A stretch of DNA of 64,000 bases from the NCBI GenBank assembly GCA_005697215.1, contig CP040003.1, positions 434,001-498,000 on the forward strand, written 5' to 3'. The position numbers and the translations under genes were made by a program. The notes beneath the pieces are model-generated. The model did no database searches. It saw only the letters and a program-made list of their open reading frames with translations, and was not told the origin of the DNA. Source of the stretch: Candidatus Saccharibacteria bacterium oral taxon 488. GTDB taxonomy: Bacteria; Patescibacteriota; Saccharimonadia; Saccharimonadales; Saccharimonadaceae. Positions within the stretch are counted from its first letter, which is position 1, and the number at the start of each line of letters is the position of its first letter. This document shows, piece by piece, positions 36,989 through 54,778 of the stretch.

Positions 36989-37228
36989 CTGTTCCGCAGG
37001 GTTAGCAAAACTCCTGATGGAAATGTTGAGAACGTTAACAATTTGACTTTTGCAAACAACAATCACCTTCCTGTATTTAAGCAAACGGCCGAAATAATAA
37101 TCACAAGCGGCGACAGAGAGCTCAATACCGGAAGGCTGATAATAACAAGAAATGGAGGTACAAACCGTTCGTATCATACGCATGGTCCTCGTGATAGCGA
37201 TAGTAGCACTACTCATGCCAGCGGCTAA
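36989..37228 (+). other. open frame without clear start at the prophage edge (possible gene remnant)
   Basis: A frame open from just after TAG (36986-36988) to 37228. Residues such as TPDGNVENVNNLTFANNNHL and TAEIIITSGDRELNTGRL look protein-like, resembling the end of a tail-fibre-type protein. It overlaps the transglycosylase start, and its last 25 residues are a shadow of that gene. It may be the severed 3' end of a gene whose 5' part lies at the other prophage end. Otherwise I see only terminators between 36832 and 37151. Confidence 0.3.
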
Positions 37229-37685
37229 ACAGCCCCAGGAAGAGATGGTGGCACCGCTATCACGCAATAACGAGATTCAGAAACAGCAGACTATCAAGCC
37301 TGCTGAAAAACCTCAGCAGACGATATCACCAAAGCCTCAGGCGATTTTGGCGGTGTCCGAAGCAAAACCGCCGAGCACTAAGTACGACTTGATGCGTGCC
37401 GCTGGTATTCCCGAAAGTGATTGGATATCAGTAGACTACATCATCGAACACGAAAGTTCTTGGCGGCACAATGTTTGGAACAAAGGCGGCTCTGGCGCAT
37501 ACGGATTGTGCCAAAGCCTGCCAGCAGCCAAGATGGCATCTGCGGGAGATGACTACATGACAAATCCCGTTACGCAGCTACGCTGGTGTCACAATTACGC
37601 CATCAGCCGATATGGCAGTTGGCAGGCAGCCGCCGCGTTTTGGAAACGTACCGACCCGCGCCCCTACCCGGGACATTGGTGGTAA
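37152..37685 (+). CDS. phage lysozyme-like transglycosylase with N-terminal membrane segment
   Basis: 177 aa. A short hydrophobic N-terminal segment (VRIIRMVLVIAIVALLMPA) precedes a Lys/Pro/Gln linker, then an SLT-like lysozyme domain from about residue 95. That domain has the catalytic-type glutamate in YIIEHESSW, GSGAYGLCQS and YGSWQAAAAFW. Likely the endolysin or a virion peptidoglycan hydrolase; the membrane segment suggests a signal-anchor-release endolysin. The start is uncertain: GGAGG lies just inside the frame and a later ATG (37182) is possible. Confidence 0.8.
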   Translation: MEVQTVRIIRMVLVIAIVALLMPAAKQPQEEMVAPLSRNNEIQKQQTIKPAEKPQQTISPKPQAILAVSEAKPPSTKYDLMRAAGIPESDWISVDYIIEHESSWRHNVWNKGGSGAYGLCQSLPAAKMASAGDDYMTNPVTQLRWCHNYAISRYGSWQAAAAFWKRTDPRPYPGHWW

Positions 37686-37724
37686 AAACAAACAACAAAA
37701 ACAGCCGGAAAGGAGATCAACTCT

Positions 37725-37958
37725 ATGGGCAAACTTAAAACAGCAATCAACAACATAACTGTCTTTTTAGACAATGCCTGGACTATCATGGTCCGCGCCA
37801 CAGAGATAGTAGCGGGAATAAAACTCTTTGGAGTCCAGTACATAGAGACCGCAATCGGAGCTTTACCGATTGCACAAATCCTCGGAGCAATTCTCATTAC
37901 TGATGTGACTGTCTTTGTTTATTCTCTGCTTCGCTCGCAAAGTGAAAAGAAGAGATGA
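37725..37958 (+). CDS. small membrane protein, holin-like
   Basis: 77 aa with an amphipathic N-terminus and one to two hydrophobic segments (ATEIVAGIKLFGVQYIETAIG and ALPIAQILGAILITDVTVFVY), ending in a positively charged tail (SQSEKKR). Size, topology and position next to the transglycosylase fit a holin, but there is no sequence signature. AAAGGAG precedes the start. It overlaps rusA by 4 nt. Confidence 0.6.
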   Translation: MGKLKTAINNITVFLDNAWTIMVRATEIVAGIKLFGVQYIETAIGALPIAQILGAILITDVTVFVYSLLRSQSEKKR

Positions 37959-38311
37959 AAAAGCATATCAGTATCACACCAGTTAGCAAACCGCGCATGA
38001 CGAGAAGCGATAAGTGGAATGAGCGTCCGTCAGTAATGAGCTATCGAGCGTACGGCGACGAGCTAAGGCTGAAATTGCCAGGATATGAGCTGCCTGAAAC
38101 GTTTACGATTGAATTTGCTCTGCCCATGCCAAAAAGTTGGTCAAACAAGAAGCGTAAAGCCATGAATGGATGTCCGCACCAGCAGAAACCGGATATAGAC
38201 AATCTGGTTAAGGCGTTTCTGGATCATCTCTGCGAGGATGATTCGTACGTCTGGAAGGTGTGTGCATCCAAGATATGGGCGGAACACGGCGGAATAACTA
38301 TCGAAACTTAA
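37955..38311 (+). CDS. rusA: RusA-family Holliday junction resolvase
   Basis: 118-aa endonuclease resolving recombination junctions, probably trimming replicated phage DNA before packaging. The family motif KPDIDNLVKAFLDHL, with two metal-binding aspartates, is followed by a further acidic pair in CEDDSYVW. Normal length. ATGA overlap with the holin-like gene. Confidence 0.88.
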   Translation: MKKHISITPVSKPRMTRSDKWNERPSVMSYRAYGDELRLKLPGYELPETFTIEFALPMPKSWSNKKRKAMNGCPHQQKPDIDNLVKAFLDHLCEDDSYVWKVCASKIWAEHGGITIET

Positions 38312-38325
38312 GGAGGAATCCGAGA

Positions 38326-38583
38326 ATGAGAATCTTACAGCTTTTATCCAGAAAGAAAGATGACGAGCCTGAGCTTGAAATTCGCAGTGAGGACGAAGAC
38401 TATACCGAGTGGCACGTCAAGCCAGATTTTGAAGCAAGAGACTTGTCATTAACCTTTCGGTCCCGATCTGATGCGCGCGATTATAAAAGACTGCTGGCGA
38501 AAAGCTTTTACCATATCCATTCAAGAATTATTCGCCGGGAGTGGCAGGGCGGATTCATCCGAGAGGAGAAAGAAGTTAGCTAA
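38326..38583 (+). CDS. phage hypothetical protein
   Basis: 85 aa, charged, no recognised domain (contains a DEPELEIRSEDEDYTEWHVK acidic stretch and a basic C-terminal half). AGGAGG before the ATG fixes the start. Between rusA and terminase genes. Confidence 0.6.
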   Translation: MRILQLLSRKKDDEPELEIRSEDEDYTEWHVKPDFEARDLSLTFRSRSDARDYKRLLAKSFYHIHSRIIRREWQGGFIREEKEVS

Positions 38584-38664
38584 TCATTAAACTGGTGCCA
38601 AAACGGTTAAATGGCTTGGCGATGCCCACCCTTGCCAAGCAGCAGCCAGAGACAGGTAAAAAAT

Positions 38665-38928
38665 ATGAACGATAGCAAGCACGTACACAAATGGGAGTGT
38701 CTCCGAGTAGATAAGCTTATTTGCCATAGATGCAATACGGTTGCGGAAATTGACACGTTAATTACTAACAACCGTAATGATGCTTATCTCAAAGCGAAGG
38801 TCGATATTCTGTCTAAACAGTTATATGCTGGCGACCTAAAGAAAGATGCTCGCGAGAAAGCTTATGCGTGGCTGATGGAGCATAGTCCGGATGCTATCAA
38901 GAAAGACGAACAGGTATCGCTGCTATGA
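38665..38928 (+). CDS. phage hypothetical protein with Cys pairs
   Basis: 87 aa. The N-terminus has HKWECLRVDKLICHRCNT, suggesting a small zinc-binding knuckle with His and Cys ligands; the rest is helical. Overlaps the next small gene by 4 nt (ATGA). Confidence 0.55.
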   Translation: MNDSKHVHKWECLRVDKLICHRCNTVAEIDTLITNNRNDAYLKAKVDILSKQLYAGDLKKDAREKAYAWLMEHSPDAIKKDEQVSLL

Positions 38929-39032
38929 CAAGAGACGAAATGATCAAACGGATTGAGAGTGCGCTAAGACGTGCTGAACGCGCCATTGTTGAACTTCGCA
39001 AAGAGCTAAAGAGACTACGGAGCGAGGGATAG
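38925..39032 (+). CDS. 35-aa helical phage peptide
   Basis: Short reading frame starting MTRDEMIKRIESALRRAERA, continuing as a single amphipathic helix with heptad spacing and a basic C-terminus. ATGA overlap with the preceding gene and 4 nt to the next support translation. Confidence 0.5.
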   Translation: MTRDEMIKRIESALRRAERAIVELRKELKRLRSEG

Positions 39033-39036
39033 GTTT

Positions 39037-39273
39037 ATGGCGGTCGAGTATGTCCTGTACAAGGGAGAAGAAATAGTGGGAATAGGCACAGCCGACGAGC
39101 TATCTCGACGGCTTGGATTACGTCCGCAAACTATTCGAAGTTACTCCTCGCCTTCTCATATGCGCCGCGTAGAAGAAAGCGCCGATCCAGAGTCGAGGAT
39201 TGTGGCGGTAAGAGTTAAACATGGAAAGGAAGATGATGGCAATGACTCAGAAAAACAACAGAGTGGCGATTGA
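39037..39273 (+). CDS. phage HTH-like small protein
   Basis: 78 aa. It begins AVEYVLYKGEEIVGIGTADELSRRLGLRPQTIRSYSSP, matching small phage proteins with a MerR/AlpA-like helix-turn-helix near terminase genes. Such proteins may bind DNA at packaging or regulatory sites; the role here is unproven. Overlaps terS by 32 nt. Confidence 0.6.
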   Translation: MAVEYVLYKGEEIVGIGTADELSRRLGLRPQTIRSYSSPSHMRRVEESADPESRIVAVRVKHGKEDDGNDSEKQQSGD

Positions 39274-39841
39274 GGCGCATGCTCAGCGTATTGTAGATGT
39301 GGTGGTCCGCAAAGCCGAGCCTGCACCTGAGCCGCCAAAGCCTGTCTATGAGTACTCGCCCGGTCGTCCGATGAAGTTTCAGAATATCGACGAACTACGC
39401 GCCATGATACTTGAATACTTTAAGAATGCAGCGCCCCACTGGGAAGAACAAACTGAGTATATTGACCGCCGCGACTCTAAGTCTGGAAAGATTATCATTG
39501 AAAACGGAAAGGTCGTCCAGGACAAGGTGGTCCGCAAAGTTAAAACCAAACAGAAACCACTCACCGTTACTGGTTTAGCTGTTGCACTAGGCACATCACG
39601 CGATGTGTTATTAGACTATGAGACCACATATTCAGAGAAATATCCAGAATTTTCCAACACGATAAAAGAAGCAAAAGAACAGATTAAAGCCTATGCGGAG
39701 GAGTCTCTGTTTGGCACTAATACTGCTGGCGTAATATTCAGCTTGAAGAATAACTGGGGATTCAAAGACAAATATGAGACCGAGAACACTAACCGTGAGG
39801 TTAAGTTCATTAACACTGTTCCGAGGACGCCAGAATCATGA
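39242..39841 (+). CDS. terminase small subunit
   Basis: About 199 aa. A central helix-turn-helix (LTVTGLAVALGTSRDVLLDYE) and oligomerising helices end in SLFGTNTAGVIFSLKNNWGFKD, the typical end of phage TerS proteins of the terminase small-subunit/DNA-packaging type. It recognises the packaging site. The ATG at 39242 is 9 nt after GGAAG; in-frame starts at 39221 and 39233 are alternatives. Overlaps terL by 4 nt. Confidence 0.82.
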   Translation: MTQKNNRVAIEAHAQRIVDVVVRKAEPAPEPPKPVYEYSPGRPMKFQNIDELRAMILEYFKNAAPHWEEQTEYIDRRDSKSGKIIIENGKVVQDKVVRKVKTKQKPLTVTGLAVALGTSRDVLLDYETTYSEKYPEFSNTIKEAKEQIKAYAEESLFGTNTAGVIFSLKNNWGFKDKYETENTNREVKFINTVPRTPES

Positions 39842-41226
39842 CAGAAATAGTCAAAGTACCGGATTACACTGCTTCGCCTCGTCAGACATTGTTTCATACA
39901 TCAACAGCTTTTGAGCGATTCTACGGTGGTGCTGCCGGCGGAGGAAAGACTGCCGCACTAGTTGCTGAAGCAGTAACACGTTGCCTTGAGTACGATCACT
40001 ACGCAGCGTATCTATTTCGGCGAACGTACGAGGATACGAAAAAGACCCTCATGCGAGAAATAGATAAACAGTGCCGTGCATATATCAAGGACGGCAACAT
40101 GATATTTAGGTCGCAAGAAAAGGGCTACTACTTCACCGCCACTGAATCGTGGATTTACTTGTGCTACTACAACCACGAAGATGATTTTAATCACTATCAG
40201 GGTTCAGAGATACACATGCTGGGTATCGACGAGTTAACTCAGTTCTACGAAAGCTGGTACGACAACCTCGTTGGGCGCGTTCGTTCTGACGATCCAGACA
40301 AACCACTTACCGTCTTCGCAGCTGGCAACCCAGGTGGCGTCGGGCATGGCTGGGTCAAGACTCGATTCATCGATGCCGCACCACCTGAGCAGATAATTTA
40401 TGACAAGCGTCCGTACGTCAAGCGAGACGGCTCAATTGACTACATCGAGACAACTCGTATGTTTATCCCTGCCACTCTAGAAGACCACCCGAGCGCGTCA
40501 TTCAGACAGTCATACATGCGTAGCCTACTGACAATGGCAGACCTAAAGAAGCGCGAAGCATATCTGTATGGTAACTGGGATCTGTTTGCTGGTCAGGCGT
40601 TTAGCGAGTGGCGGCGACATCTACACGTTGTCGAGCCGTTTAACATACCAGACCACTGGCCGAGATGGATGGCATATGACTATGGACGAGGTACGTATGC
40701 GGGTGCTGTTTGGCTAGCACGTGACCCAATTAGTCAACGGATATATCTTTACCGCGAATATTATGCTAGCGGCAAAGGTCCAAGGATCCAGGCACGCGAG
40801 ATGAAGCAGCTTGAACAGTCAAACGAGCAACTGCCTGTTAGGCTAGCCGACCCGTCACTATGGAAGCATATCGCTAATGCCGATGACGGAAAAACTATCG
40901 CTGATCGATTTACCGAAGAAGGCATCAACTTCACGCCCGCCAATAACGACCGACTTCAAGGAGTCACTGCTGTTCATGAAGCGTTGTCTCTGGCACCAGA
41001 CGGATTGCCATACCTGCAGGTATTCAGTAACTGTGTTCATTTTATCCGTACCCTACCGAGCCTCGTGGTTGACACTAAACGACCCGAGGACGTTGATACA
41101 ACAGGTGAAGACCATCTCTACGATGCACTGCGCTACGGGCTTGTCAATGAGCGTAAGGCGGCAGTTGAGGATTCTATGCCTCAGTCTGATCCGGGACTGT
41201 TTAGCGATGGAGGGTATTATGGGTAG
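39838..41226 (+). CDS. terL: terminase large subunit
   Basis: 462-aa packaging motor and nuclease. Walker A GGAAGGGKT at about 32-40, Walker B HMLGIDELTQF (D-E), coupling motif FAAGNPGG, nuclease acidic residues in AYDYGRGTY and near HLYDALRYG at the C-terminus. Normal length. Translation is coupled to terS. Confidence 0.95.
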   Translation: MTEIVKVPDYTASPRQTLFHTSTAFERFYGGAAGGGKTAALVAEAVTRCLEYDHYAAYLFRRTYEDTKKTLMREIDKQCRAYIKDGNMIFRSQEKGYYFTATESWIYLCYYNHEDDFNHYQGSEIHMLGIDELTQFYESWYDNLVGRVRSDDPDKPLTVFAAGNPGGVGHGWVKTRFIDAAPPEQIIYDKRPYVKRDGSIDYIETTRMFIPATLEDHPSASFRQSYMRSLLTMADLKKREAYLYGNWDLFAGQAFSEWRRHLHVVEPFNIPDHWPRWMAYDYGRGTYAGAVWLARDPISQRIYLYREYYASGKGPRIQAREMKQLEQSNEQLPVRLADPSLWKHIANADDGKTIADRFTEEGINFTPANNDRLQGVTAVHEALSLAPDGLPYLQVFSNCVHFIRTLPSLVVDTKRPEDVDTTGEDHLYDALRYGLVNERKAAVEDSMPQSDPGLFSDGGYYG

Positions 41227-41258
41227 TTTACCGATAAAAAATTAAAGGAGGGTATATT

Positions 41259-41582
41259 TTGGAAAGCTTAGATTTACCACAATACATCATTAACCTAGAG
41301 CGAGCCGCACGCGATACGCCGTTTGGTGAAGTTGGTCCGTTCTATCTCATGAGACACAAAGGCGAGACCGTGGGTATACGCGGGCAAACATCGGAGATCA
41401 TCCGATTCAAAACCACGGCAGAAGCAGTTATATATCTGGTGGACTACATCAAGACCCTGCCGACCGACAAGTCTGGAGATGTCGTTTTTGCCGTTAAATT
41501 TACTAACGGTAGGGTCAAACAGATTACTACAACATCAGATATCACAACGATAATCGAGGATAAAGCAGATGACGACAGATAA
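41259..41582 (+). CDS. phage hypothetical protein (TTG start)
   Basis: 107 aa from a TTG preceded by AGGAGG at 8 nt. Beta-rich, no recognised domain (contains PFYLMRHKGETVGIRG and VVFAVKFTNGRVKQI). Overlaps the HNH gene by 14 nt. Confidence 0.6.
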   Translation: MESLDLPQYIINLERAARDTPFGEVGPFYLMRHKGETVGIRGQTSEIIRFKTTAEAVIYLVDYIKTLPTDKSGDVVFAVKFTNGRVKQITTTSDITTIIEDKADDDR

Positions 41583-41898
41583 AGCCAAGGTGCTATGTAA
41601 GAACTGCGGCAGCACAAGACATTATCAGACGTTCTGTCCATTCAAAAAACGACAGAAAATATCGCAGTGCGGCAAACATGCAAAAGCGTGGGCAGCGTTC
41701 CGAGATAAGGTTGCGAAGCCATACCTCGACATGAAATTTGGGCATGTGTGTGCGGTCGCCGGATGTACCGAGACTAAAAACCTAGATGTTGATCACATTA
41801 AGGGGCGCGGCTCTCACCCACATTTGCGTTATGACGTCAACAACTTGCAATACTTGTGCCGTAATCATCATCGACTGAAAACGGACGGCAAACTATGA
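41569..41898 (+). CDS. HNH endonuclease
   Basis: 109 aa. N-terminal CKNCGSTRHYQTFC zinc knuckle, then an HNH core: CAVAGCTETKNLDVDHIKG and LQYLCRNHHRLKT. Terminase-associated HNH nucleases are often needed for genome packaging in long-terminase phages. Ends in TGA overlapping the next ATG. Confidence 0.85.
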   Translation: MTTDKAKVLCKNCGSTRHYQTFCPFKKRQKISQCGKHAKAWAAFRDKVAKPYLDMKFGHVCAVAGCTETKNLDVDHIKGRGSHPHLRYDVNNLQYLCRNHHRLKTDGKL

Positions 41899-41984
41899 CG
41901 AAGAAGGCTTTACGAAAGAAACAGCGCCGAAAACGTAAACAGCGAGCGATAACTAACGAAATAAAGGGAGGTAAAAATGACTAA
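41895..41984 (+). CDS. 29-aa highly basic peptide
   Basis: Starts MTKKALRKKQRRKRKQRA; more than half of the residues are Lys/Arg. ATGA overlap with the HNH gene; its end overlaps the next gene by 8 nt and contains that gene's GGGAGG site. It may be a nucleic-acid-binding peptide or only a coupling frame. Confidence 0.4.
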   Translation: MTKKALRKKQRRKRKQRAITNEIKGGKND

Positions 41985-42942
41985 AGAAACAGAATTGCCA
42001 GACGTATTTTTCTGGGCAAACAAAACGGACGGACGTAAGGATAAATTAGGCATTGAGCTATTTGCAATCACCAAATCGTCTGAGATATTTCGCATTGACC
42101 ATGACGAGGCAATCAATCATCAGCTGTTCGCGCTGTTTTTGTACGACATCATTAGTGGAGTGCAAGTTGACAGTATCACCGGCGTAAGGATTGTCGATTA
42201 TGCGGCATCTGAGGGCTGTCAGAATACCCTACCCGCCATCAAGGTAAATGACGTACCGGTTGCTGAAACGATCATGGAATATCTGGAGTATACAAATGAC
42301 ATCGACCTACTCGACTTAAATCAAATCGAGGCAAAGAAGCTACTAGCGATTTGCGCACGCTTCACCGACAAGGAGACGAACGAACGCTTTTACATTTTTA
42401 AGCACATTCGCCCAGCTAGCGTATTAGTCGGCAGCACTGTCTCCTACACTATTTCAGTCGGACGCATGGAAGAGCTGTCGTCAGAGTGCGCATTAAAGAT
42501 AGATCCGTCGAATCAAGTTTTAGTGTTTGAAGATACGATGTTTGTGTTCAATAAGTCCAAGTTTGAATCGATGTTTCAATACGACCCAGTGTCAGTCGCT
42601 GAAGCTCGCAAGAATGGCAAGATACTTGACGAGAGGCTGTCTATCGCCACGCCGACGGTTGGTCAAGGAATTGAATTTCTCTGTAAGGACAACCGCACAC
42701 TAGTCAAGCGGCTTGCTAAGCTTGACCCCGTCAATATGACCCGCGATGTTGTTGAGGAGATAATTCGCGATTACAACGTAGATCTAATGACCGATGCCAC
42801 CAACGACAAACTCATCATCATGGACGCTAACGATGCTAAGAAACTGCTAGATATTGTAGAGGACAACTTCGTTCGCGGTACCAACGGCACTGCTTATATC
42901 GCCAAAAACAAGAAGGAACTTGAGCCAAAGGAGGATAAATAA
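41977..42942 (+). CDS. DUF4868 / KwaB-like protein
   Basis: 321 aa. The C-terminal half matches what I know of DUF4868, the domain of KwaB from the Kiwa antiphage system: MFVFNKSKFESMFQYD (188-203), DNRTLVKRLAKLDP, and LIIMDANDAKKLLDIVEDNF followed by GTNGTAYIAKNK. The N-terminal half is the usual variable beta-rich part. Strong GGGAGG upstream. Directly coupled (TAATG) to a 55-aa membrane protein. No four-helix KwaA is present. Recognition is by pattern, not alignment, so the family call is moderate. Possible roles are superinfection exclusion or a decoy. Confidence 0.6.
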   Translation: MTKETELPDVFFWANKTDGRKDKLGIELFAITKSSEIFRIDHDEAINHQLFALFLYDIISGVQVDSITGVRIVDYAASEGCQNTLPAIKVNDVPVAETIMEYLEYTNDIDLLDLNQIEAKKLLAICARFTDKETNERFYIFKHIRPASVLVGSTVSYTISVGRMEELSSECALKIDPSNQVLVFEDTMFVFNKSKFESMFQYDPVSVAEARKNGKILDERLSIATPTVGQGIEFLCKDNRTLVKRLAKLDPVNMTRDVVEEIIRDYNVDLMTDATNDKLIIMDANDAKKLLDIVEDNFVRGTNGTAYIAKNKKELEPKEDK

Positions 42943-43109
42943 TGTTCTGGATTATGACACTCATAATACTCGTCGCATTCATCGTCGTTACAGAGATTGC
43001 GGTGGCGCGAGAAGACAAAGAATGGCAACGTGAACGCGAGGTCAGACAGTACAAAGACAAAATCATCAAGTCCCGCAAGCGGAATAAGAAAGATAACGGA
43101 ATATTTTAA
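42942..43109 (+). CDS. 55-aa single-pass membrane protein coupled to the KwaB-like gene
   Basis: Starts MFWIMTLIILVAFIVVTEIA, one transmembrane helix, followed by a strongly charged cytosolic tail rich in Lys/Arg/Glu. Its ATG shares one base with the upstream stop, so the two proteins are made together. This suggests a membrane-anchoring partner, in the place where Kiwa has the larger KwaA. Confidence 0.6.
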   Translation: MFWIMTLIILVAFIVVTEIAVAREDKEWQREREVRQYKDKIIKSRKRNKKDNGIF

Positions 43110-43120
43110 TAGGAGGTGTT

Positions 43121-43708
43121 ATGAAACGATACAAACTGCTTAAAGATTTACCGACGTTCAAAGCTGGAGATTTATTCTATATATCTCAATATGGTGATTT
43201 GATCCATGATGGTGGCGACTTTGGCGTTACAGCTTACGCCCGACAGACCCTTGACATGTTTCCAAACATTTTAACTGAATGGTTTGAGGAAATTCAGGAA
43301 GAGTCAACAGACAGCATTCACTGGAGGACTGAAAATGGCGACATATATTGGTTTGTCGGAATAGAAGGAAAAACTAATCACGATTTTTGGACTGGCACTC
43401 CTGCTGACTTTTGGCGTTATGGGTTGGGTAAAATATACCGCACCAAAGAAGAGTGCGAAAAAGCCCGCGACCGTCAACTAGCCGAAGTCAGACTACACCG
43501 AACCTCAACATTTAAGCCAGATTTCGAAAATGATAATGGCGGTTGGATTGTCTTTTATAACTATTCAAATAAAAAGTTATATTCTATGCGAAGTTGTTGC
43601 ACTGATAGTGGTGAGCCTGTACGCTACGCAACCAGAGAAGATGCTCAAAAATCCATCAAAGAACACAAGAAAGACTGGCTAACCTACTTTAACGTGGAGG
43701 ATTGTTAA
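43121..43708 (+). CDS. phage hypothetical protein (two YKLLKDLP-type repeats)
   Basis: 195 aa. The start RYKLLKDLPTFKAGDLFYIS is typical of small phage proteins of unknown role. A second domain includes GKIYRTKEECEKARDRQLAEVRL and SMRSCCTDSGEPVRYATRED. AGGAGG upstream. Soluble. Confidence 0.65.
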   Translation: MKRYKLLKDLPTFKAGDLFYISQYGDLIHDGGDFGVTAYARQTLDMFPNILTEWFEEIQEESTDSIHWRTENGDIYWFVGIEGKTNHDFWTGTPADFWRYGLGKIYRTKEECEKARDRQLAEVRLHRTSTFKPDFENDNGGWIVFYNYSNKKLYSMRSCCTDSGEPVRYATREDAQKSIKEHKKDWLTYFNVEDC

Positions 43709-44167
43709 ATGGGACTTTTAGATATGTCAGAGACGACTACTTTTCGCGATCTGATGCTAGAAAGATGCCGAGTGGCTATGGAACATAGGCTCGGAAAACA
43801 TATGCTACGGAATCTAGAATTGCGAGAGTTTCAAAATCCTTGCGCCGCCATAGATGATTTGGCAATTGCATTTTGCTCTGACGTGCTGTCTAACAAATTA
43901 TGCGAGGATTCATACAGCGTATCAGACTCTCAGACGCTTCTCTTCCCGAAAACTCCATGGCAACACTTCAAGAATGACTACATGCCAAAGTGGTTTATCA
44001 AGAAGTTTCCTATCAAGTATCTGCATAAGAAGGTAGAGTTTCATAAAACCATTAAAATCACTCGTCGAGAAACCTACCCGATGTGCGATATGGACATCAG
44101 AAATAACCCGGGGCTCAGAGTTCAGCTGGGTACGCCGGTTATTAAAGATGAGGTAAAAATTAGCTAA
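43709..44167 (+). CDS. phage hypothetical protein
   Basis: 152 aa, unrecognised, starting directly after the previous stop. It has a helical N-terminus and a C-terminal half rich in aromatic/basic residues (HFKNDYMPKWFIKKFPIKYL). Confidence 0.6.
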   Translation: MGLLDMSETTTFRDLMLERCRVAMEHRLGKHMLRNLELREFQNPCAAIDDLAIAFCSDVLSNKLCEDSYSVSDSQTLLFPKTPWQHFKNDYMPKWFIKKFPIKYLHKKVEFHKTIKITRRETYPMCDMDIRNNPGLRVQLGTPVIKDEVKIS

Positions 44168-44182
44168 TAGAAAGGACACGAT

Positions 44183-44347
44183 ATGGAACGTAAAATACTC
44201 ATGACAATCTATATCATCGGTATGATATCCGGTGCAGCCTCAGTGATATTTACTGCTATCGAAAAGCAATACACCGGATCAATATTCTATCTAATACTAT
44301 TTTTCATTAACACGTTTGGATTTTATGCCGCAAAGGAGGAAAAATAG
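44183..44347 (+). CDS. 54-aa protein with two membrane helices
   Basis: Two hydrophobic segments (MTIYIIGMISGAASVIFTAI and IFYLILFFINTFGFYAA) with a short loop; starts 9 nt after AAAGGA. Unknown role. Confidence 0.5.
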   Translation: MERKILMTIYIIGMISGAASVIFTAIEKQYTGSIFYLILFFINTFGFYAAKEEK

Positions 44348-44348
44348 A

Positions 44349-44582
44349 ATGGAGTCTTACTCATATTGCTCAGCCCTAGAAAAGTTCTGGAATTTTGTCA
44401 TTGGGATAGTTATTATTTGTATTTTTGTGTCTGCTACTGCTTGGTCAATAACAGCAGCAATAAGCGTTCGAGGTGGACTTGACGCGCAAGATTCTCACCT
44501 TGATGCACAAAAGTCTCGCTGTGAATCGCTTCAGGGTAATTATGGCGGCGGAAAATGCTTTAAGGGTGGAAAAGAAATATGA
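44349..44582 (+). CDS. small membrane-anchored phage protein
   Basis: 77 aa. One transmembrane helix (FVIGIVIICIFVSATAWSITAAI), then a polar outer part with two Cys (SRCESLQGNYGGGKCFKGG) that could form a disulfide. GGAGGA upstream; overlaps the next gene by 4 nt. Confidence 0.55.
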   Translation: MESYSYCSALEKFWNFVIGIVIICIFVSATAWSITAAISVRGGLDAQDSHLDAQKSRCESLQGNYGGGKCFKGGKEI

Positions 44583-44824
44583 AAAAACTAGAAAAGATAG
44601 ATTACTTACAAAAAAACCATTTGTATGAATGGGTAAAAACTCATGCCCAAGTAGAGCGAGAGTTGTCAGATGCTCATGACCTTTTCTGCGAATGCGGACA
44701 CCTAGCAACTGGGGCTCATGAATCTGGCTGCCGCAAACTCAGAAATAAAATCATGAGCGAGACGATAAAACGGCTATCTCATTTACTGCCTAAAGAGAAT
44801 GTGAGGCTAGACGGAGATGGTTAG
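44579..44824 (+). CDS. phage hypothetical protein with Cys/His cluster
   Basis: 81 aa with FCECGHLATGAHESGCRKL, a possible zinc-binding site, inside a helical protein. Overlaps neighbours on both sides (4 and 8 nt). Confidence 0.55.
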   Translation: MKKLEKIDYLQKNHLYEWVKTHAQVERELSDAHDLFCECGHLATGAHESGCRKLRNKIMSETIKRLSHLLPKENVRLDGDG

Positions 44825-45167
44825 AGAGTTAGGCGATGTTTACAGCCATAGAGTTGTGCCAGTCGGTACTAAGATATGGTTTGAATCAGAAAGACAAGGC
44901 TACACGGTTAGAGCGTCTAATACAGCGTTTGCAATTTTGACCAAGCCGTTCAATATCAGCAAAACCGTACTGTACACAATCATCGACTGGGAGCTTGGTA
45001 TACGCGGTCCTAGCAACCTAATTTTTAACATTGGCGCAGAGACCGATGAGCAGTGCCTAGAGCTATTGGATATGCTCACTAGCGGCGAGATTGAAGTTAG
45101 CTCACGACGCTGCGTCGAGCTGAATATTCGAAGAGCAAAAATAAATTATATGAAATTGTGTAGATAA
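44817..45167 (+). CDS. conserved phage protein of unknown function
   Basis: 116 aa. The pattern GTKIWFESERQGYTVRASN, then AILTKPFNISKTVLYTIIDW and NLIFNIGAETDEQCLELL is familiar from many Gram-positive-type phage accessory regions, without known function. Confidence 0.7.
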   Translation: MVRELGDVYSHRVVPVGTKIWFESERQGYTVRASNTAFAILTKPFNISKTVLYTIIDWELGIRGPSNLIFNIGAETDEQCLELLDMLTSGEIEVSSRRCVELNIRRAKINYMKLCR

Positions 45168-45177
45168 GGAACAGATT

Positions 45178-45594
45178 ATGGCCAAACCACATTTTAGCTC
45201 ACTAAGAATGGATTGGCGAACACCAAAAGCAGTCTATCAGGTACTTGATTCAGAGTTTCAGTTTGATCATGACCCTTGCCCCGCTAATTGGGACGGCAAG
45301 GTCGATGGGCTGACAAGCGATTGGGGGGGTACAAACTACGTCAATCCACCATACGGCAGAGAGCTACCAAAATGGATTGAGAAAGGCTATCGGGAGTGGC
45401 GGAAAGGCAAAACAGTTGTATTTCTGATACCAAGCCGAACCGACACGCGCTGGTGGCACGATTATTGCATGAAAGCGACCGAAATCCGCTACATAAAAGG
45501 CAGGCTGAAGTTCGACGACCAGCCAAACCCAGCACCATTTCCGAGTGCGATAGTGATTTTTAGAGCTAATAGAGAAACAGTAAATGTCAACTAA
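45178..45594 (+). CDS. phage DNA N-6-adenine methyltransferase (Phage_dam type)
   Basis: 138 aa. DWRTPKAVYQVLDSEFQFDHDPCP is the N-terminal family signature and NYVNPPYG the catalytic motif. These phage enzymes methylate adenine and probably protect phage DNA from restriction. Normal length. Confidence 0.88.
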   Translation: MAKPHFSSLRMDWRTPKAVYQVLDSEFQFDHDPCPANWDGKVDGLTSDWGGTNYVNPPYGRELPKWIEKGYREWRKGKTVVFLIPSRTDTRWWHDYCMKATEIRYIKGRLKFDDQPNPAPFPSAIVIFRANRETVNVN

Positions 45595-45631
45595 ACCACT
45601 AATTTTGTAGACATAGATAAAGGAGATGTTA

Positions 45632-45973
45632 ATGAAAATCATAGCAGAAAATCCAGCTGAAGAAGCCCTGTTGTGGCGCATTAAAGCCCTGAGCAACGAG
45701 TTAGTTAATCAAGATAATCGATGTACTAGCATGCCAGTCTGGACGATCCTAGATAATAACAAAGCCAGCAAAGACTACGGCGCAGTCATGTACTTTACTG
45801 GCAAAGCCGCCGAGCAGCACATCAACGAGAACGACCATCATTACGAGAATCCAACGACATGCATTCGTAGCGCTCACGACAACCGAGAGCTGAAAGATGT
45901 TATTCACCTACTCATTCTAGCTGGCGGCAATGAAATACCAAGTAACCATTATGGGGTTTTGAGAGATGCGTGA
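45632..45973 (+). CDS. phage hypothetical protein
   Basis: 113 aa; ATG fixed by AAGGAG. Contains YGAVMYFTGKAAEQHINENDHHY, no recognised domain. Overlaps the YopX gene by 8 nt. Confidence 0.6.
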   Translation: MKIIAENPAEEALLWRIKALSNELVNQDNRCTSMPVWTILDNNKASKDYGAVMYFTGKAAEQHINENDHHYENPTTCIRSAHDNRELKDVIHLLILAGGNEIPSNHYGVLRDA

Positions 45974-46424
45974 TATTAAATTTAGAATCTGGGATAAACG
46001 ATGCCGCTTATATCTGACATTAGCTGGTGCAGACTGGGGCGGCGTGGAAGATAGAGGTACTTTCTGTAATTTCAAATATGTACACTTGTTCCCGCCAGAA
46101 GGCGTTCCAATGCGCAATCCATCGCCACACTACGGAGGATGTCTAAGCTTCAAACTTACAGACAGTGTAGATAACAATCGTTTAGTTTTTGAACAATATA
46201 CAGGATGTAAAGACAAAAACGGCACAGAGATTTATGAGGGCGACGTCGTAAAAGTTGAGGGAGATGGCGAGATCTACCGAGTGAAGTGGATTCGCAGTGG
46301 ATTTGGTCTTGAGCCACGATACAATTCGCCACGTTACCCAGTACTAGGCAATGTTGAATTACGTAGAAAAATTGAAGTCATTGGCAATATTCACGAAAAT
46401 CCTGAATTATTGGAGGAGAAATGA
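45966..46424 (+). CDS. YopX family protein
   Basis: 152 aa. The C-terminal QYTGCKDKNGTEIYEGDVVKV is the YopX signature, and the N-terminus MRDIKFRIWDK is typical. Common in phage accessory regions; function unknown. Overlaps the next gene by 4 nt. Confidence 0.88.
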   Translation: MRDIKFRIWDKRCRLYLTLAGADWGGVEDRGTFCNFKYVHLFPPEGVPMRNPSPHYGGCLSFKLTDSVDNNRLVFEQYTGCKDKNGTEIYEGDVVKVEGDGEIYRVKWIRSGFGLEPRYNSPRYPVLGNVELRRKIEVIGNIHENPELLEEK

Positions 46425-46918
46425 AAACTGCCCCAACAACCATACTTGACGCTTGTTGCGGCGGCCGCATGTTTTACTTTGAAAAAGACCACCCAAACAT
46501 TCTGTATATTGACCGACGCCGTGAAACTGTCGAGATGAAAGACAGAGACAAGATTAGGACATTAGAAATCAACCCAGACCTAGTCATAGACTTTACAGAT
46601 ATGAGGTTTCCTGATGAGTGCTTTAACTTTGTCGTCTTCGATCCACCTCACCTCATCAACTGCGGCAAGAATAGCTGGCTGGCTAAAAAGTATGGCAAGC
46701 TTGATAAAGATACTTGGCGTGAAACACTGAGCAAAGGCTTGAGCGAGTGTCTACGCGTTGTAAAGCCTGGTTGTGTCGTCGCTATGAAGTGGAGCGAGCG
46801 CGATATTAAAACAACTGAATTACTAAAAATATTACCTCAAAAACCAGCTTTCGGCGATAAATCTGGAATGACGCGATGGCTGTTTTTTGTGAAAGGAGTA
46901 GATGATGAAAATATCTAG
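46421..46918 (+). CDS. class I SAM-dependent DNA methyltransferase-like protein
   Basis: 165 aa. The AdoMet site is TILDACCGGRMFYFEKDHPNI and the catalytic motif is VFDPPHL (DPPH), which places it near amino-methyltransferases acting on DNA. It is compact, lacking a clear target-recognition domain. With the Dam-type enzyme nearby, the phage encodes two putative DNA methylases. Confidence 0.8.
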   Translation: MKTAPTTILDACCGGRMFYFEKDHPNILYIDRRRETVEMKDRDKIRTLEINPDLVIDFTDMRFPDECFNFVVFDPPHLINCGKNSWLAKKYGKLDKDTWRETLSKGLSECLRVVKPGCVVAMKWSERDIKTTELLKILPQKPAFGDKSGMTRWLFFVKGVDDENI

Positions 46919-47156
46919 CTTTATACGCCAGAAAAAAATCGAGTGGCTGAGGTGGCGGATCAAACGAAATAGAGTTTGGCTTAATTATGCGATGAATACT
47001 TATAATCGTATCGCTATAGAGGGTCGCTGGGACTACAGTACCCTACAACTTCTTGAGTGGAGAATAAATCGTTATGATAATAAGATTTTGTTATATAAAG
47101 CAAAAATCGTCTACCTAACGGAAGAAGAAATGAGCAAAAGAAATGACGAAGAGTAA
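46905..47156 (+). CDS. phage hypothetical protein, basic and helical
   Basis: 83 aa, rich in Arg/Lys/Trp (IEWLRWRIKRNRVWLNYAM), probably one long helix. AGGAG lies 7 nt before this ATG. Overlaps both neighbours. Confidence 0.55.
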   Translation: MKISSFIRQKKIEWLRWRIKRNRVWLNYAMNTYNRIAIEGRWDYSTLQLLEWRINRYDNKILLYKAKIVYLTEEEMSKRNDEE

Positions 47157-47673
47157 ATCAAGATCATCTATCCAGTGCGACAAATGCCATAAGTGGATAG
47201 GATACGACAAGCATTCTGGCTATAAGCATTTCTGCACTAAGCATGCGAGAGACATTTGTGAGCTTGAAGAAGCGCGCAGGCACGCTATAAGCCTTATCCG
47301 AGACGATAGCATGCGAAACTACGAAATGACGCGCCTCATTAGAGATATGTCTTTTGTGGATGTGAGATATGACCCAGAATCTAGTAAATCATTAAGAAAG
47401 GGCATTGAAGTGAAGAAAACCATAACAGACCTCCCTACTCCAGAAGAGGCCACCCGAATCTTTGCAACTTTAGATTTAGCGAGCAAACTAGATAACACTG
47501 CTATTGCCAAGCTAAGCAGTTCCAAAGGCAAAAACTCCACGCCAAAAATTGGCGAACTGTGCGGGATGGATTTACTACTTGATCTGTCTAATGCACCAGA
47601 TGAGGCAAAATATGAGCTGTATTTTAAGGCGCGTACCATACTTGAAGAGGTTATGGCTAAACTTGCCAAATAA
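47143..47673 (+). CDS. phage hypothetical protein with N-terminal zinc-ribbon-like motif
   Basis: 176 aa. IQCDKCHKWIGYDKHSGYKH followed by FCTKH suggests a small zinc-binding domain (residues 10-34); the rest is helical. Last gene of the plus-strand accessory run. Confidence 0.6.
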   Translation: MTKSKSRSSIQCDKCHKWIGYDKHSGYKHFCTKHARDICELEEARRHAISLIRDDSMRNYEMTRLIRDMSFVDVRYDPESSKSLRKGIEVKKTITDLPTPEEATRIFATLDLASKLDNTAIAKLSSSKGKNSTPKIGELCGMDLLLDLSNAPDEAKYELYFKARTILEEVMAKLAK

Positions 47674-47827: not shown

Positions 47828-48544
47828 TTATGGCAATAAAATATCATTATGATATGGGATGTTGGTGTAGAGCTTCGGACGGTTGAAATTCCTGCCGTAC
47901 CATAGGCGATTGGCTAGAATATCGCTTGCCTGAACCAGATAGTCTAGGGATGAATCGCAAAACTTTATGCTAATTTTGAAGTCGGCAAAGAGTATCGGAG
48001 GGTAAAACATACCGTAATCAAAATTACGAATTCCATGTATTAGCTCCTCTCGAATACTATCTGAGAGTTTATAGTATCCGTTGGTTGATGTGTGTTGCTG
48101 GTCAATGTAGACTCGCAGAGAAACTGGCTTGTCTGCATCAATCTTGCCAGACACAATTAGCTTCTCTAGCTTGGACTTTATCATTCTCTTTAGGGCGTAG
48201 TCTTTGTAGCGATGAATCGATAGCTTGTTTGCCATAATAGATTCATTGACGTCAGACAGCTTTACCGTAGCACTAAGACTATTGAATGACTTGACGCAAT
48301 TATACAGACTTCTCTTGTATTTAATCTCTAAGCCAGCCGCTTTTAACTCCGACCCCATCGACATGCCGAGACTGGATTTTATCTCTCGGGACATTGTTTT
48401 GAACTGCTCTCTTGCTGCAATACGCTCATGATTATCCAAGAACAGATATCCAGCGTATATAAAATAATCATGCCCAGAATTAAGAGAGAAAACACCAGAA
48501 TCATCTAGGTATATCGATATTTCTTGATACTCTTTATCACTCAT
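47828..48544 (-). CDS. DUF3800 domain protein, reversed relative to phage genes
   Basis: 238 aa. IYLDDSGVFS (N-terminal Asp pair), VYIDQQH and QASDILANRLWY are the DUF3800 motifs, which have an RNase H-like arrangement of acidic residues, hence a possible nuclease. The ATG at 48544 is 10 nt after TATAAT. With its own promoter and terminator on the opposite strand, it has the layout of a moron, a gene expressed from the prophage itself. Confidence 0.82.
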   Translation of the reverse strand: MSDKEYQEISIYLDDSGVFSLNSGHDYFIYAGYLFLDNHERIAAREQFKTMSREIKSSLGMSMGSELKAAGLEIKYKRSLYNCVKSFNSLSATVKLSDVNESIMANKLSIHRYKDYALKRMIKSKLEKLIVSGKIDADKPVSLRVYIDQQHTSTNGYYKLSDSIREELIHGIRNFDYGMFYPPILFADFKISIKFCDSSLDYLVQASDILANRLWYGRNFNRPKLYTNIPYHNDILLP

Positions 48545-48554
48545 ATTAGTAATA

Positions 48555-48608
48555 ATTATAACATTTTTCGTAAAAATGTTTGAGAATCCAAAAAGCTCAT
48601 GATATGGT
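48555..48608. promoter_or_regulatory. divergent promoters with palindromic operator
   Basis: Minus: TATAAT at 48555-48560 for the DUF3800 gene. Plus: TTGAGA (48580-48585), 17 nt, TATGGT (48603-48608) towards the portal gene. Between them lies a perfect 8-bp palindrome ACATTTTT-CGT-AAAAATGT (48561-48579), placed where a repressor could block the DUF3800 promoter and touch the other. Confidence 0.55.
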
Positions 48609-48619
48609 GAATATGTAAT

Positions 48620-48668
48620 AGCCACGAGCGGTAATGCCGCAGTAGGCTCGCAGAGAAATCTGGGGGCT
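48620..48668 (+). ncRNA. structured leader RNA before the portal gene
   Basis: A small three-way junction can form. The closing stem is AGCC (48620-48623)/GGCT (48665-48668). Helix CGAGC (48625-48629)/GCTCG (48646-48650) and helix CAGA-GAAA-TCTG (48651-48662) with a GNRA tetraloop lie inside. It is followed by a T-rich run and then the portal start. Not a known class to me. Confidence 0.4.
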
Positions 48669-48689: not shown

Positions 48690-50567
48690 ATGAAAGCAAG
48701 CGACTTAGGTAAAGACTATCAAGAATCAAGGACAAATATGATCCACACGCACGAGACATGGCGTGTCTTACTCGATATTGCCTATGCCAAGCTGTCTACT
48801 GAAAAAGGTTTTAAGTCTCGTGTTCGCGAAGGTAGCTTGAGTTCTCTGATATTAGAACGATCCTCTCGCGTGGTAGCACAGTTACCGACTGGGCGTATCC
48901 GTTCGCTAAGCAGGCGCGACCAAGGTAAGGCAATGCTGATGGATTTAGTATGGACTAAATATGTTATTCCTAACGCTAAAAGCCAGTGGTCATTCATGAC
49001 GAAGCTCCGTATGTGGGATTACTACTCCCTTATCTACGGTGCTATGCCAGTTCAGTACGATTACCGAGTTGACGAGGATTATGTCGGTCCTGATTTTAGA
49101 GTGATAAATCCGACGGAATGCTTTCCGCAGGTTGGCAATACTAGTTTGAATGATTGCGACGCTGTCTATATCGTTACCTACCATAGCAAACGCTATCTGC
49201 AAAGCCGCATGAAGTTTAAGGACTGGAATAGAGCCTCTATCCAGACTATCCTCAATAAAGCAACCGAGAAGCATCAGCCATCAGACGCTAAGGAAACGAC
49301 TACTAACCTGCAACAGGAGCGCGGCGAAGCAACTACCCTACATCAGGGACATATCGCCCTAGTTACTCGCTATGAACGCGGCAAGAATGGGCGCTGGATT
49401 ACGTTCGCACCAGACTTTGAAAATGCCATCGTTCGAAACATTAAGAATCCGCACGAATCTGGGCGTATACCTGTTGTATTTAAGTACGCTATACCATTGA
49501 TTGACTCGCTGTGGGGTATGGGCGATGTTGAGCGTGGCGCTTCATTACAGCGAGCAATCGACACGACCGTAAACCTAAATCTCGACTTCTCCAAGTTCAA
49601 GATATTCCCACCAATGTGGTATAAAGGTGATGCTGTTGATCCGTCTCTAATGCGTTATGAGCCAGGTGGCAAAATCCGTACTGCTAATGGACAATCTGAC
49701 TTTGGCTTCGTCAATCCAGGCGCTAGCCCATCGAATGAGTTCCAAGCAACCTATCAGTTCCTGAAGGGTGCGTTGCTCAATCAAAACGGTACGACTGACA
49801 CCACGATATCCGCAAGCGACGGTCTGCCGGGCTTTGGTCGAACACCAGAAGCCTTGAGTAAACTTGAAAAGCGCGAAAACGCCCGCGATCAGTGGGATAG
49901 AAATATGTTTGAGGAAGCTTATGAAGAGCTAGTCGATGGCATGATAAACCTAATTGGCACCAAACAATCTGTTCCGATAAAGTTTCATGTCTTTGACGAC
50001 GAGATCCTGGATATCATCAAATCTGGACACAAGGATCTGCTAGACATCTTCGATTCAGCCAAGAGTTACCGAATAGGTACCGACCCAGAGACTGGCGAAA
50101 ACGGTATGGTTGAGTACATCAACGCTCACGGTACAGCCGAAATGAAGATTGACCATACCAAGCTGTCCGGTAAGTGGATGTATCGAATAGATGCTGGCAC
50201 GACCGCTGCTAACGATCAGAAAGATGAGTATGAGCGCGTCTATAATCTCGTTGAGTTGCTGTCATCTCAGGCTGGTGCATGGCTAATGGACGGCGCGCAA
50301 GAAGATGGACGTAAGGTCAACAGGACAGAGCTACTTGACCAGCTTATCGCAGCTAGTGGCATCAAAAACAAAGATAAAATCTTTGACCCGTACACTCAGG
50401 AAAACGACAAGACGAAGCCATTTACCCCAGAGATGCTCAATGATCCTCAAATAGTAAACATGTTACAGCAACAGATTCAAGGTCAGTCCGAGGAGCAGCC
50501 TCAAGCACCGCAGGAAATGCAGCAAACTCAAGAAGTCCAACAACTTCAGCCGATGGAGGCGGCATAA
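48690..50567 (+). CDS. phage portal protein
   Basis: 625 aa; forms the dodecameric ring at the capsid vertex through which DNA is packaged. Typical portal features are a helical N-terminal part, RVINPTECFPQVGNT, the wing/stem region around ASLQRAIDTTVNLNLDFSKF and SASDGLPGFGRTPEALSKLE. The C-terminal about 50 residues are Gln/Pro-rich, a barrel-like tail of some podovirus portals. Identified by pattern and context. Confidence 0.82.
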   Translation: MKASDLGKDYQESRTNMIHTHETWRVLLDIAYAKLSTEKGFKSRVREGSLSSLILERSSRVVAQLPTGRIRSLSRRDQGKAMLMDLVWTKYVIPNAKSQWSFMTKLRMWDYYSLIYGAMPVQYDYRVDEDYVGPDFRVINPTECFPQVGNTSLNDCDAVYIVTYHSKRYLQSRMKFKDWNRASIQTILNKATEKHQPSDAKETTTNLQQERGEATTLHQGHIALVTRYERGKNGRWITFAPDFENAIVRNIKNPHESGRIPVVFKYAIPLIDSLWGMGDVERGASLQRAIDTTVNLNLDFSKFKIFPPMWYKGDAVDPSLMRYEPGGKIRTANGQSDFGFVNPGASPSNEFQATYQFLKGALLNQNGTTDTTISASDGLPGFGRTPEALSKLEKRENARDQWDRNMFEEAYEELVDGMINLIGTKQSVPIKFHVFDDEILDIIKSGHKDLLDIFDSAKSYRIGTDPETGENGMVEYINAHGTAEMKIDHTKLSGKWMYRIDAGTTAANDQKDEYERVYNLVELLSSQAGAWLMDGAQEDGRKVNRTELLDQLIAASGIKNKDKIFDPYTQENDKTKPFTPEMLNDPQIVNMLQQQIQGQSEEQPQAPQEMQQTQEVQQLQPMEAA

Positions 50568-52191: not shown

Positions 52192-53109
52192 ATGGCTGAC
52201 ACTACTACTGCGCAGCTTCAGCACGATCTGCAAACCTATTTTGCGAAGAAAGTCCTTCGCGGAGCGGAGTTTCAGACTGTGCTTGACCAGTTCGGTCACA
52301 AAGAAACATTGCCAGAGGCATCAAGCAAGACGATCCAGTTTACCCGTTACTCGGACTTGGATATCGTTACTAACCCTCTGACGGAAGGGCAAGCCCCAGC
52401 CGGCAGCCAGCTGACAACTTCTGCTATCAATGCGGTTGTTGACCAGTATGGCGACTTTGTGACGCTTACTGACCTCGCAAAATTAACACCAAAACACTCA
52501 TCTGTTCAAAACGCTCTGAAGAAGCTCAGCGAGCAGTCATCGAAGAGCTATGACCGTGCTATCAACAAGGTCATTATCGCCGGTACTGCTGTACGCTACG
52601 CCAATTCAAAGACCGCACGCAACTTGCTGGCTGACGCAGACAAGCTGACCTGGGCAGATGTTCGCAAAGAGGTTTCCCGCTTGCGCACCGCAGGCGCACC
52701 AACCTTTAAGGACGGTAACTATGTCCTAGTTGTCGATCCAGCCGTCGAGCAAGACTTGATGGATGACGAGGCGTTCCGCCAGACGGTTTACCGCCAAGCA
52801 TCGAAGGAGAAATCCAACGAGCTATACAAGGGCGAATTAGTCTCGTTTGCTGGTGTAACGGTTGTTCGAAGTAATAACCTAATCACCGACAAGGGCGCAT
52901 CAAATGCGAAGGTTCACATTAGCTTGCTCTTCGGCGAAGACGCCTACGGCAACACCGACCTGCAGCATCTGAAGGTGTACAAGGAAGGCCCAGGCGGCGT
53001 GTCCGACCCACTTCATCAGAAGATGACGCTTGGTTGGAAGTTTGCCGCCAAGGCTGCCATTCTAAACAACAACTTTATGTGTCGTTTGGAATCCGGCTCG
53101 CTATACTAA
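52192..53109 (+). CDS. major capsid protein, N4-gp56 family
   Basis: 305-aa HK97-fold capsid subunit. Family features include an N-terminal helix (LQHDLQTYFAKKVL), KTIQFTRYSDLDIVTNPLTEGQAP, VVDQYGDFVTLTDLAKLT and the C-terminal LGWKFAAKAAILNNNFM. Length agrees with the family. Confidence 0.92.
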   Translation: MADTTTAQLQHDLQTYFAKKVLRGAEFQTVLDQFGHKETLPEASSKTIQFTRYSDLDIVTNPLTEGQAPAGSQLTTSAINAVVDQYGDFVTLTDLAKLTPKHSSVQNALKKLSEQSSKSYDRAINKVIIAGTAVRYANSKTARNLLADADKLTWADVRKEVSRLRTAGAPTFKDGNYVLVVDPAVEQDLMDDEAFRQTVYRQASKEKSNELYKGELVSFAGVTVVRSNNLITDKGASNAKVHISLLFGEDAYGNTDLQHLKVYKEGPGGVSDPLHQKMTLGWKFAAKAAILNNNFMCRLESGSLY

Positions 53110-54004: not shown

Positions 54005-54012
54005 ATGGACAA

Positions 54013-54034
54013 ATCATACCATATTTGCTATAAT
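54013..54034. promoter_or_regulatory. divergent promoters of the moron pair
   Basis: Minus: TATGAT (54013-54018), 8 nt before the membrane-protein ATG. Plus: extended TGC-TATAAT (54029-54034), 6 nt before the CAP-protein ATG at 54041. Both look leaderless, like host genes. Confidence 0.6.
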
Positions 54035-54040
54035 GACGCC

Positions 54041-54778
54041 ATGAAAAAAGGTGGTAAAAAAGAAAAAAACGACACGATGGTCACTAGAAAGAAGTGCCTC
54101 ATCGACGTAGCTATCGTCGGTGTTGTTTGTTTTTTTATCGGTTTTTTATTCTGTCACACAGCATACCCTATTCTATACCATAACAAGTTAGAATCTGATA
54201 GGAAAAACACTGAAGCCACCCTGGACTATAAGATACAGGAGTTGAGAGACTTGCAAGGACGAACTCCAGTCAAAAATCAGAGCCAGAATAAGTCTGCTTC
54301 GCATAGCAAGCACACTGTCTACGACATCACGCCAGAGACAATGCTAGCTGAAGTCAACAAGATACGTGCCGAGCATGGCGTCGCACCAATGCAGCTCAGT
54401 CCAGCTCTAAATAAATCTGCGCAAGAGAAATGCGAGGACATGGTTACCAATAATTATTACAATCACAAGAATCCAACAACAGGACAGCAAGGCTATGAAA
54501 TTGCTATCAAGACAATGGGTGGCATACGCGGATATTATGGCGAAAATATGAATGTTATCCATGGTTCAGATAAAGGTGCTGCTGACGTAAATGGAGACCG
54601 GCTAGATGAGCGTACCGTCTTCAGTGGCACATATGGCTGGATGAAAAGTGAGCCGCACGCTAAGGCTATCCTTGACTCTCGATACACGCTAACTGGCTTT
54701 GGCAAGTGCACCAAGAACGACCACGACGAATGGGGTGATTGGTATTTTATTGAGCATTTTTATAGTCCAAATCTCTAA
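54041..54778 (+). CDS. CAP-domain (SCP/PR-1-like) surface protein encoded by the phage
   Basis: 245 aa. One N-terminal membrane anchor (LIDVAIVGVVCFFIGFLFCHTAYPI), a linker/coiled coil, then a CAP domain from about residue 100: MLAEVNKIRAEHGVAPMQLSP, NNYYNHKNP and the C-terminal LTGFGKCTKNDHDEWGDWYF. CAP proteins are secreted; the exact activity is uncertain. In a phage structural block, with its own promoter, it is probably a lysogenic-conversion gene altering the cell surface. Confidence 0.82.
   Translation: MKKGGKKEKNDTMVTRKKCLIDVAIVGVVCFFIGFLFCHTAYPILYHNKLESDRKNTEATLDYKIQELRDLQGRTPVKNQSQNKSASHSKHTVYDITPETMLAEVNKIRAEHGVAPMQLSPALNKSAQEKCEDMVTNNYYNHKNPTTGQQGYEIAIKTMGGIRGYYGENMNVIHGSDKGAADVNGDRLDERTVFSGTYGWMKSEPHAKAILDSRYTLTGFGKCTKNDHDEWGDWYFIEHFYSPNL

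Follow-up and report, generated by a model that had tools for sequence, protein, structure and literature searches.

A prophage-borne KwaB-family protein of Saccharibacteria and its near-core relatives in the hosts

The closest described counterpart of the locus studied here is the phage-defence system Kiwa, composed of KwaA and KwaB. Papers on its mechanism (PMC12904381, PMC13190303, PMC11514479) describe KwaB as a protein that binds DNA without cutting it (PMC12904381), report that it is active on phages without KwaA, and predict that it dimerises chiefly via its N-terminal domain (both PMC11514479). In a 64,000-nucleotide stretch of the chromosome of Candidatus Saccharibacteria bacterium oral taxon 488 (contig CP040003.1; hereafter the window, from whose first base all coordinates are counted), a prophage carries a gene for a 321-residue KwaB-like protein (41977..42942), followed directly by a gene for a 55-residue membrane-like protein. 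The original prediction saw in these two genes a functional pair, possibly a reduced Kiwa or else a decoy interfering with host Kiwa, with the small protein taking the place of KwaA. The present analysis newly shows how widely the KwaB family extends beyond Kiwa, occurring both as a near-core gene of the Saccharibacterial hosts and as a lineage of phage genes.

By profile and by fold, the product of 41977..42942 is a member of the KwaB family, in agreement with the DUF4868 likeness first proposed. It matched Pfam PF16162 (KwaB, DUF4868) over residues 121-300 with an E-value of 4.2e-16 (59.9 bits, against a cut-off of 26.3), as well as PADLOC KwaB models with E-values down to 4.8e-10 and phrog_11123 at 1.5e-8. 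Its AlphaFold2 model, with a predicted local distance difference test score (pLDDT) of 84.2, returned six PDB matches below an E-value of 0.001, all of them KwaB (2e-14 to 4e-12) and followed by a seventh at 0.16; it shares its fold with the solved KwaB structures 9mrx, 9mtn and 9nyu across 290-297 residues, and its sequence is 25% identical to a KwaB encoded in a Saccharibacterial Kiwa operon. The phage locus also differs from Kiwa. The VIA rmsd (root-mean-square deviation) between the model and the Kiwa KwaB structures is about 12 A, such that either the domains are differently placed or the model is off there, and the order of the genes is reversed, with kwaA preceding kwaB in the five operons that we read whereas the membrane gene comes second in the phage. 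Moreover, no KwaA model matched at E<=1 when we tested the 55-residue protein and the open reading frames (ORFs) at 39838, 41259, 41569, 43121, 43709 and 47828, and no other PADLOC model matched the 55-residue protein at that threshold; the locus thus has the KwaB subunit of Kiwa with no detected adjoining KwaA. A possible likeness of the N-terminal part of the 321-residue protein to the fold of YejK (NA37) is a weak structural lead, and the NA37 family was not found in the four Saccharibacterial genomes searched for it.

Full-length relatives of the phage protein were present in 19/20 hand-picked Saccharibacterial genomes (with RpoB loci serving as handles), at 26-33% identity to it. Taking one host relative from this set as the query for searches of the class and the family, we detected the gene in 125/151 genomes of its family, compared with 140/151 for an RpoB control in the same style of search, and in a sample of the phylum 23/379 genomes lay above the Pfam cut-off, all 23 being among the class-search matches. 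This core gene differs from the phage copy in being chromosomal and mostly single. One match was found in 121/125 family genomes and two in the remaining four, where the additional match reflected a gene broken in two within a contig (G311), a contig-end fragment (G331), a second copy (G005) or the KwaB of a Kiwa operon (G118). With the phage protein as query, the genus of the nearest host genome yielded core-type copies only, in 8/9 genomes, and the core protein searched against the window found a single good match, the phage gene itself.

A further difference from the phage copy is that in most cases the core gene has for a neighbour a PIF1-type helicase (at 1.6e-37 to Pfam PIF1 for the copy in locus L092), which is present in 117/151 family genomes. 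The two genes lie within 5 kb of one another on the same strand in 81 of the 99 genomes that have both, and in 32/99 the helicase follows directly downstream within 70 nucleotides; of the remaining 18, 17 have the two genes on separate contigs and one has them 43 kb apart. In 12 core neighbourhoods inspected by eye (L145-L156), the PIF1-type helicase was seen in 11, and 7 of the 12 held an ORF that, from its motif, we take to be RNase HI-like. Some database records name the core protein 'Kiwa anti-phage protein KwaB-like domain-containing protein'. In the literature searched we found no description of the near-core spread of the host gene or of its helicase neighbour, and, judging by titles and abstract openings, no paper describing KwaB-like genes in Saccharibacteria or their phages.

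True Kiwa is detectable in the same host family and is distinct from the core gene, since KwaA-KwaB operons were found and one genome, G118, holds a full Kiwa operon together with a core KwaB-like gene elsewhere on the same contig. KwaA was detected in at least 3/151 family genomes (a lower bound from a single model, PDLC00219, with two of the three matches weak, at 1.1e-5 and 3.7e-5), each time with a PADLOC KwaB alongside. Complete kwaA-kwaB operons were seen in three Saccharibacterial genomes, G118, G011 and G302 (loci L142, L143 and L144).

Phages other than this one also carry relatives of the prophage gene. Scanning IMG/VR with a profile gave five contigs (L112-L116), of which L112 and L113 are identical in the stretch compared, leaving four distinct sequences; a second, phage-weighted profile scan gave four loci, all on contigs already known. 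Terminase families match in L112 and L115, L114 shares the gene set of L112, and L116 was judged to be a phage from its gene set. These copies are 30-32% identical to the window copy, from which they differ in a longer N-terminus, in their next genes and in the absence of the 55-residue gene. The next gene is of three kinds in the four sequences, being of the same soluble kind in L112 (173 residues) and L114 (106 residues) and encoding a charged 65-residue protein in L115. In L116 it is an ORF of 130 residues (L116:6911-7303) with two hydrophobic stretches by eye and no family above the cut-off. Upstream of the KwaB-like gene, L115 carries a DUF3799 PDDEXK protein and a Sak4-like annealing protein at a distance of about 4-5 kb, and L116 a VRR-NUC nuclease and a replication-initiation-type protein at about 1-3 kb.

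Maximum-likelihood analysis of 44 sequences set the window copy apart from the core copies on a branch with support 100/99, together with three close relatives and the copies of L112, L114 and L115, although long branches may attract one another here (L115 with the window copy and others). L116 groups among the chromosomal copies, and a single phage clade was not rejected (approximately unbiased test, p-AU 0.32). With Kiwa KwaBs added, the tree left the order of the phage, core and Kiwa groups open, and a single Kiwa clade was neither found nor rejected (p-AU 0.27). Of loci L101-L110, the 44-row tree includes L103, L105, L106, L107, L109 and L110; L121 and L130 were missed by the ORF filter, and L122, L124, L126 and L133 were omitted as duplicates. 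The P rows, which stand for close relatives of the window copy, were re-aligned in both trees and were possibly read with gap signs, as the P0004 row of the Kiwa tree was; BLAST results for that row were left out of account.

The small gene that follows the window copy has the features first ascribed to it. The two ORFs share one base in a TAATG junction, and ribosome-site-like stretches lie directly upstream of the 321- and 55-residue ORFs (GGGAGG; AAAGGAGG). The top hydrophobic 19-residue window of the 55-residue protein starts at residue 4 (mean 2.74) and its tail is charged, and AlphaFold2 predicts, with modest confidence (pLDDT 74), a single helix over residues 2-52. The gene is conserved in 33 homologous clusters, all close relatives at 78-98% identity, with Candidatus Saccharibacteria as the source name of one and Caudoviricetes as that of another. 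Weak matches were limited to phrog_32961 (0.0034) for the protein itself and ZorB (0.012) for its relative P0025. However, a TAATG overlap with a small membrane-like neighbour is nothing rare in this operon, because 12/22 junctions among the 23 ORFs listed from 37152 to 47673 overlap (some depending on the start chosen) and a membrane-like segment is present in four of these ORFs, of which three are shorter than 90 residues and lie near one another.

A functional pairing of the two proteins is not supported. It is weakened both because a KwaB-like gene with no detected kwaA is the common state in the hosts (125/151 against 3/151) and because the other KwaB-like genes seen lack the 55-residue gene: it follows the KwaB-like gene in none of the four distinct IMG/VR sequences, and an alignment of the 55-residue family used as query returned no IMG/VR locus. 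The reduced-Kiwa interpretation loses ground on the same near-core distribution and on the different next genes of the other phages. There is one indirect sign that the small gene is retained together with its neighbour within this lineage. The records of a KwaB-like relative, P0002 (92% identity), and of a relative of the small protein, P0025 (87%), each name one 2287-base contig from the same source, so that the two genes probably lie on one contig and form a second pair. Taken as a whole, the operon encodes several small membrane-like proteins, and the 55-residue protein is probably just one of these, co-translated with the KwaB-like protein and not a partner that it requires.

The locus is a prophage in the chromosome of a Saccharibacterium, as the original prediction had held in placing it in a phage; prophages in Saccharibacteria are already known (PMC10746230). 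Genes of the bacterial chromosome occupy the left of the window (rpoC, rpoB, trigger factor, histidyl-tRNA synthetase, BipA and D-Ala ligase), and the RpoB encoded there shares 93% identity with that of a Candidatus Saccharibacteria genome. To the right of a tRNA-Gly lie phage genes identified by PHROG matches, including a RusA-type resolvase and those listed in Table 1; the window was searched for a second copy of the tRNA end, as expected at the right border of the prophage, and none was found. The 195-residue protein encoded after the 55-residue gene had no Pfam match above the cut-off and no PADLOC match. The same operon encodes a Dam-type DNA adenine methyltransferase (45178-45594; Pfam Dam 2.6e-18). 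Directly before the portal gene, a 265-residue ORF on the opposite strand (47828-48625), perhaps cargo, had no PADLOC match and presumably resembles DUF3800 proteins. The structural part of the phage includes a CAP-domain protein (54005-54778) and an ORF of 2144 residues (56235-62669).

Table 1. Features of the prophage locus, in window coordinates.
Feature	Coordinates	Strand	Evidence
tRNA-Gly dividing bacterial from phage genes	36756..36831	+	ARAGORN
Terminase large subunit	39838..41226	+	phrog_2 4.4e-37
HNH endonuclease, directly before the KwaB-like gene	41569..41898	+	phrog_144 9.4e-12; Pfam HNH under cut-off
KwaB-family protein, 321 residues	41977..42942	+	Pfam PF16162, PADLOC KwaB, PDB fold matches
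55-residue protein, one predicted helix and charged tail	42942..43109	+	Hydropathy, AlphaFold2, 33 homologous clusters
195-residue protein of unknown family, directly after the 55-residue gene	43121..43708	+	Best PHROG 0.0063
54-residue ORF with membrane-like segment, same operon as the KwaB-like gene	44183..44347	+	Hydropathy 2.15
78-residue ORF with membrane-like segment, same operon as the KwaB-like gene	44346..44582	+	Hydropathy 2.51
Connector or portal protein	48690..50567	+	phrog_332 2.2e-9; portal families 3e-4 and weaker
Major head protein	52192..53109	+	phrog_1357 2.8e-49

Close variants of the phage KwaB-like protein differ unevenly along their length. Compared with the window copy, P0002 has 26 differences in residues 1-200 and none in residues 201-321 (p 3e-6), and P0003 has 52 and 2 (p 4e-10). 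P0001, whose cluster counts 422 member sequences, shows 10 and 2, with no significant split (p 0.22), and P0004 varies over its whole length. Among P0001, P0002, P0003 and the window copy, residues 201-321 are near-identical. All 21 pairs of core proteins from one genus also lean towards N-terminal variation, with a weaker split (smallest p 0.019). Given that P0002 and P0003 depart from the window copy almost exclusively in residues 1-200, the N-terminal part of the phage protein appears to change fast or to be swapped by recombination, through mosaic exchange or diversifying selection. A shorter variant of 209 residues, P0005, is without about 110 internal residues. Back-translated patterns of the single protein found no close relatives in IMG/VR or in genome contigs, and tblastn against annotated phage records found no close relatives of the window, L115 or L116 copies. 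The terminase and head protein of the phage had no kin in IMG/VR, and the terminase had one weak partial match across 295 family genomes; therefore, no second genome of this phage was found.

We tentatively favour, at a little short of even probability, the reading that the prophage protein is a diverged phage relative of a core protein of DNA transactions and serves the handling of phage DNA, replacing or opposing the host protein. This reading draws on the KwaB fold and family, on the near-core host relative beside a PIF1-type helicase, and on the phage relatives, of which the L115 and L116 copies lie near recombination or replication genes, as well as on the many KwaB-like genes with no detected kwaA. 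The phage protein would most likely be soluble and dimeric and, by analogy with Kiwa KwaB, would bind DNA; it may act in replication, recombination, protection or packaging of phage DNA, either standing in for the host copy or competing with it. We infer the binding and the dimerisation, as well as the part that it would play in the DNA metabolism of the phage. Several observations weigh against such a role. The protein is acidic, with a predicted isoelectric point of 4.8, although the Kiwa KwaBs examined are acidic too (4.9-5.4); the identity of the phage protein to the host protein is only about 32%; and its gene is placed between the terminase and HNH genes and the portal gene, with no recombination gene beside it. 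Furthermore, the share of the core gene in the class (192/294) is lower than in the family, and a fast-changing N-terminal part would suit an arms race at least as well. In a broader scenario, on the unlikely side in our estimation, the Saccharibacterial KwaB would be a housekeeping protein of DNA ends or replication forks working with the PIF1 helicase, Kiwa would be an offshoot joined by KwaA, and the fast-changing N-terminal domain of the phage lineage would engage or block the KwaB-PIF1 machinery of the host.

A rival reading casts the phage protein as an antagonist, whose N-terminal domain would bind the host KwaB-like protein, or a Kiwa KwaB, in an inactive or redirected heterodimer. The concentration of differences in residues 1-200 relative to P0002 and P0003 fits this idea, given that PMC11514479 predicts dimerisation chiefly via that domain, and true Kiwa is present in some of these hosts. 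Yet P0001 shows no significant split, P0004 varies throughout and all of the core pairs lean weakly the same way, while the low identity to the host protein and the deep separate branch of the phage copies also speak against such pairing, and we regard it as unlikely. Rather unlikely, too, is a superinfection-exclusion module in which the KwaB-like protein acts on incoming DNA, either by itself or with the 55-residue protein as its membrane anchor. Kinship to KwaB, the overlapping one-helix protein and the probable second pair on the P0002/P0025 contig would suit it, as would the activity without KwaA reported in PMC11514479. It is countered by the absence of the small gene beside the KwaB-like genes of other phages and by the frequency of small membrane proteins and overlaps in the operon. 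Moreover, the gene lies inside the terminase-portal operon, where a weak scan counted 20 promoter-like sites against 18.5 +- 4.1 in shuffled sequences, and expression of the KwaB-like gene in the lysogen is therefore not indicated by that scan. The interval between terminase and portal often houses cargo genes, and the shortened P0005 would likewise be in keeping with a gene of no set role, retained for a time after its capture. We consider this improbable in view of the near-unchanged residues 201-321 and the size of the P0001 cluster.

Combining these results, we consider the phage copy more likely to handle DNA than to be a pared-down immune system. A family known for phage defence is, in this bacterial lineage, a near-core gene linked by gene order to a PIF1-type helicase. 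If the core protein does perform DNA housekeeping, Kiwa would be an instance of immunity built on an ordinary DNA protein, and in Saccharibacteria a KwaB match on its own should not be taken as a sign of defence. These observations make it possible to test what a so far uncharacterised gene does in ultra-small bacteria living on other bacteria, and how the phages of these bacteria deal with it.
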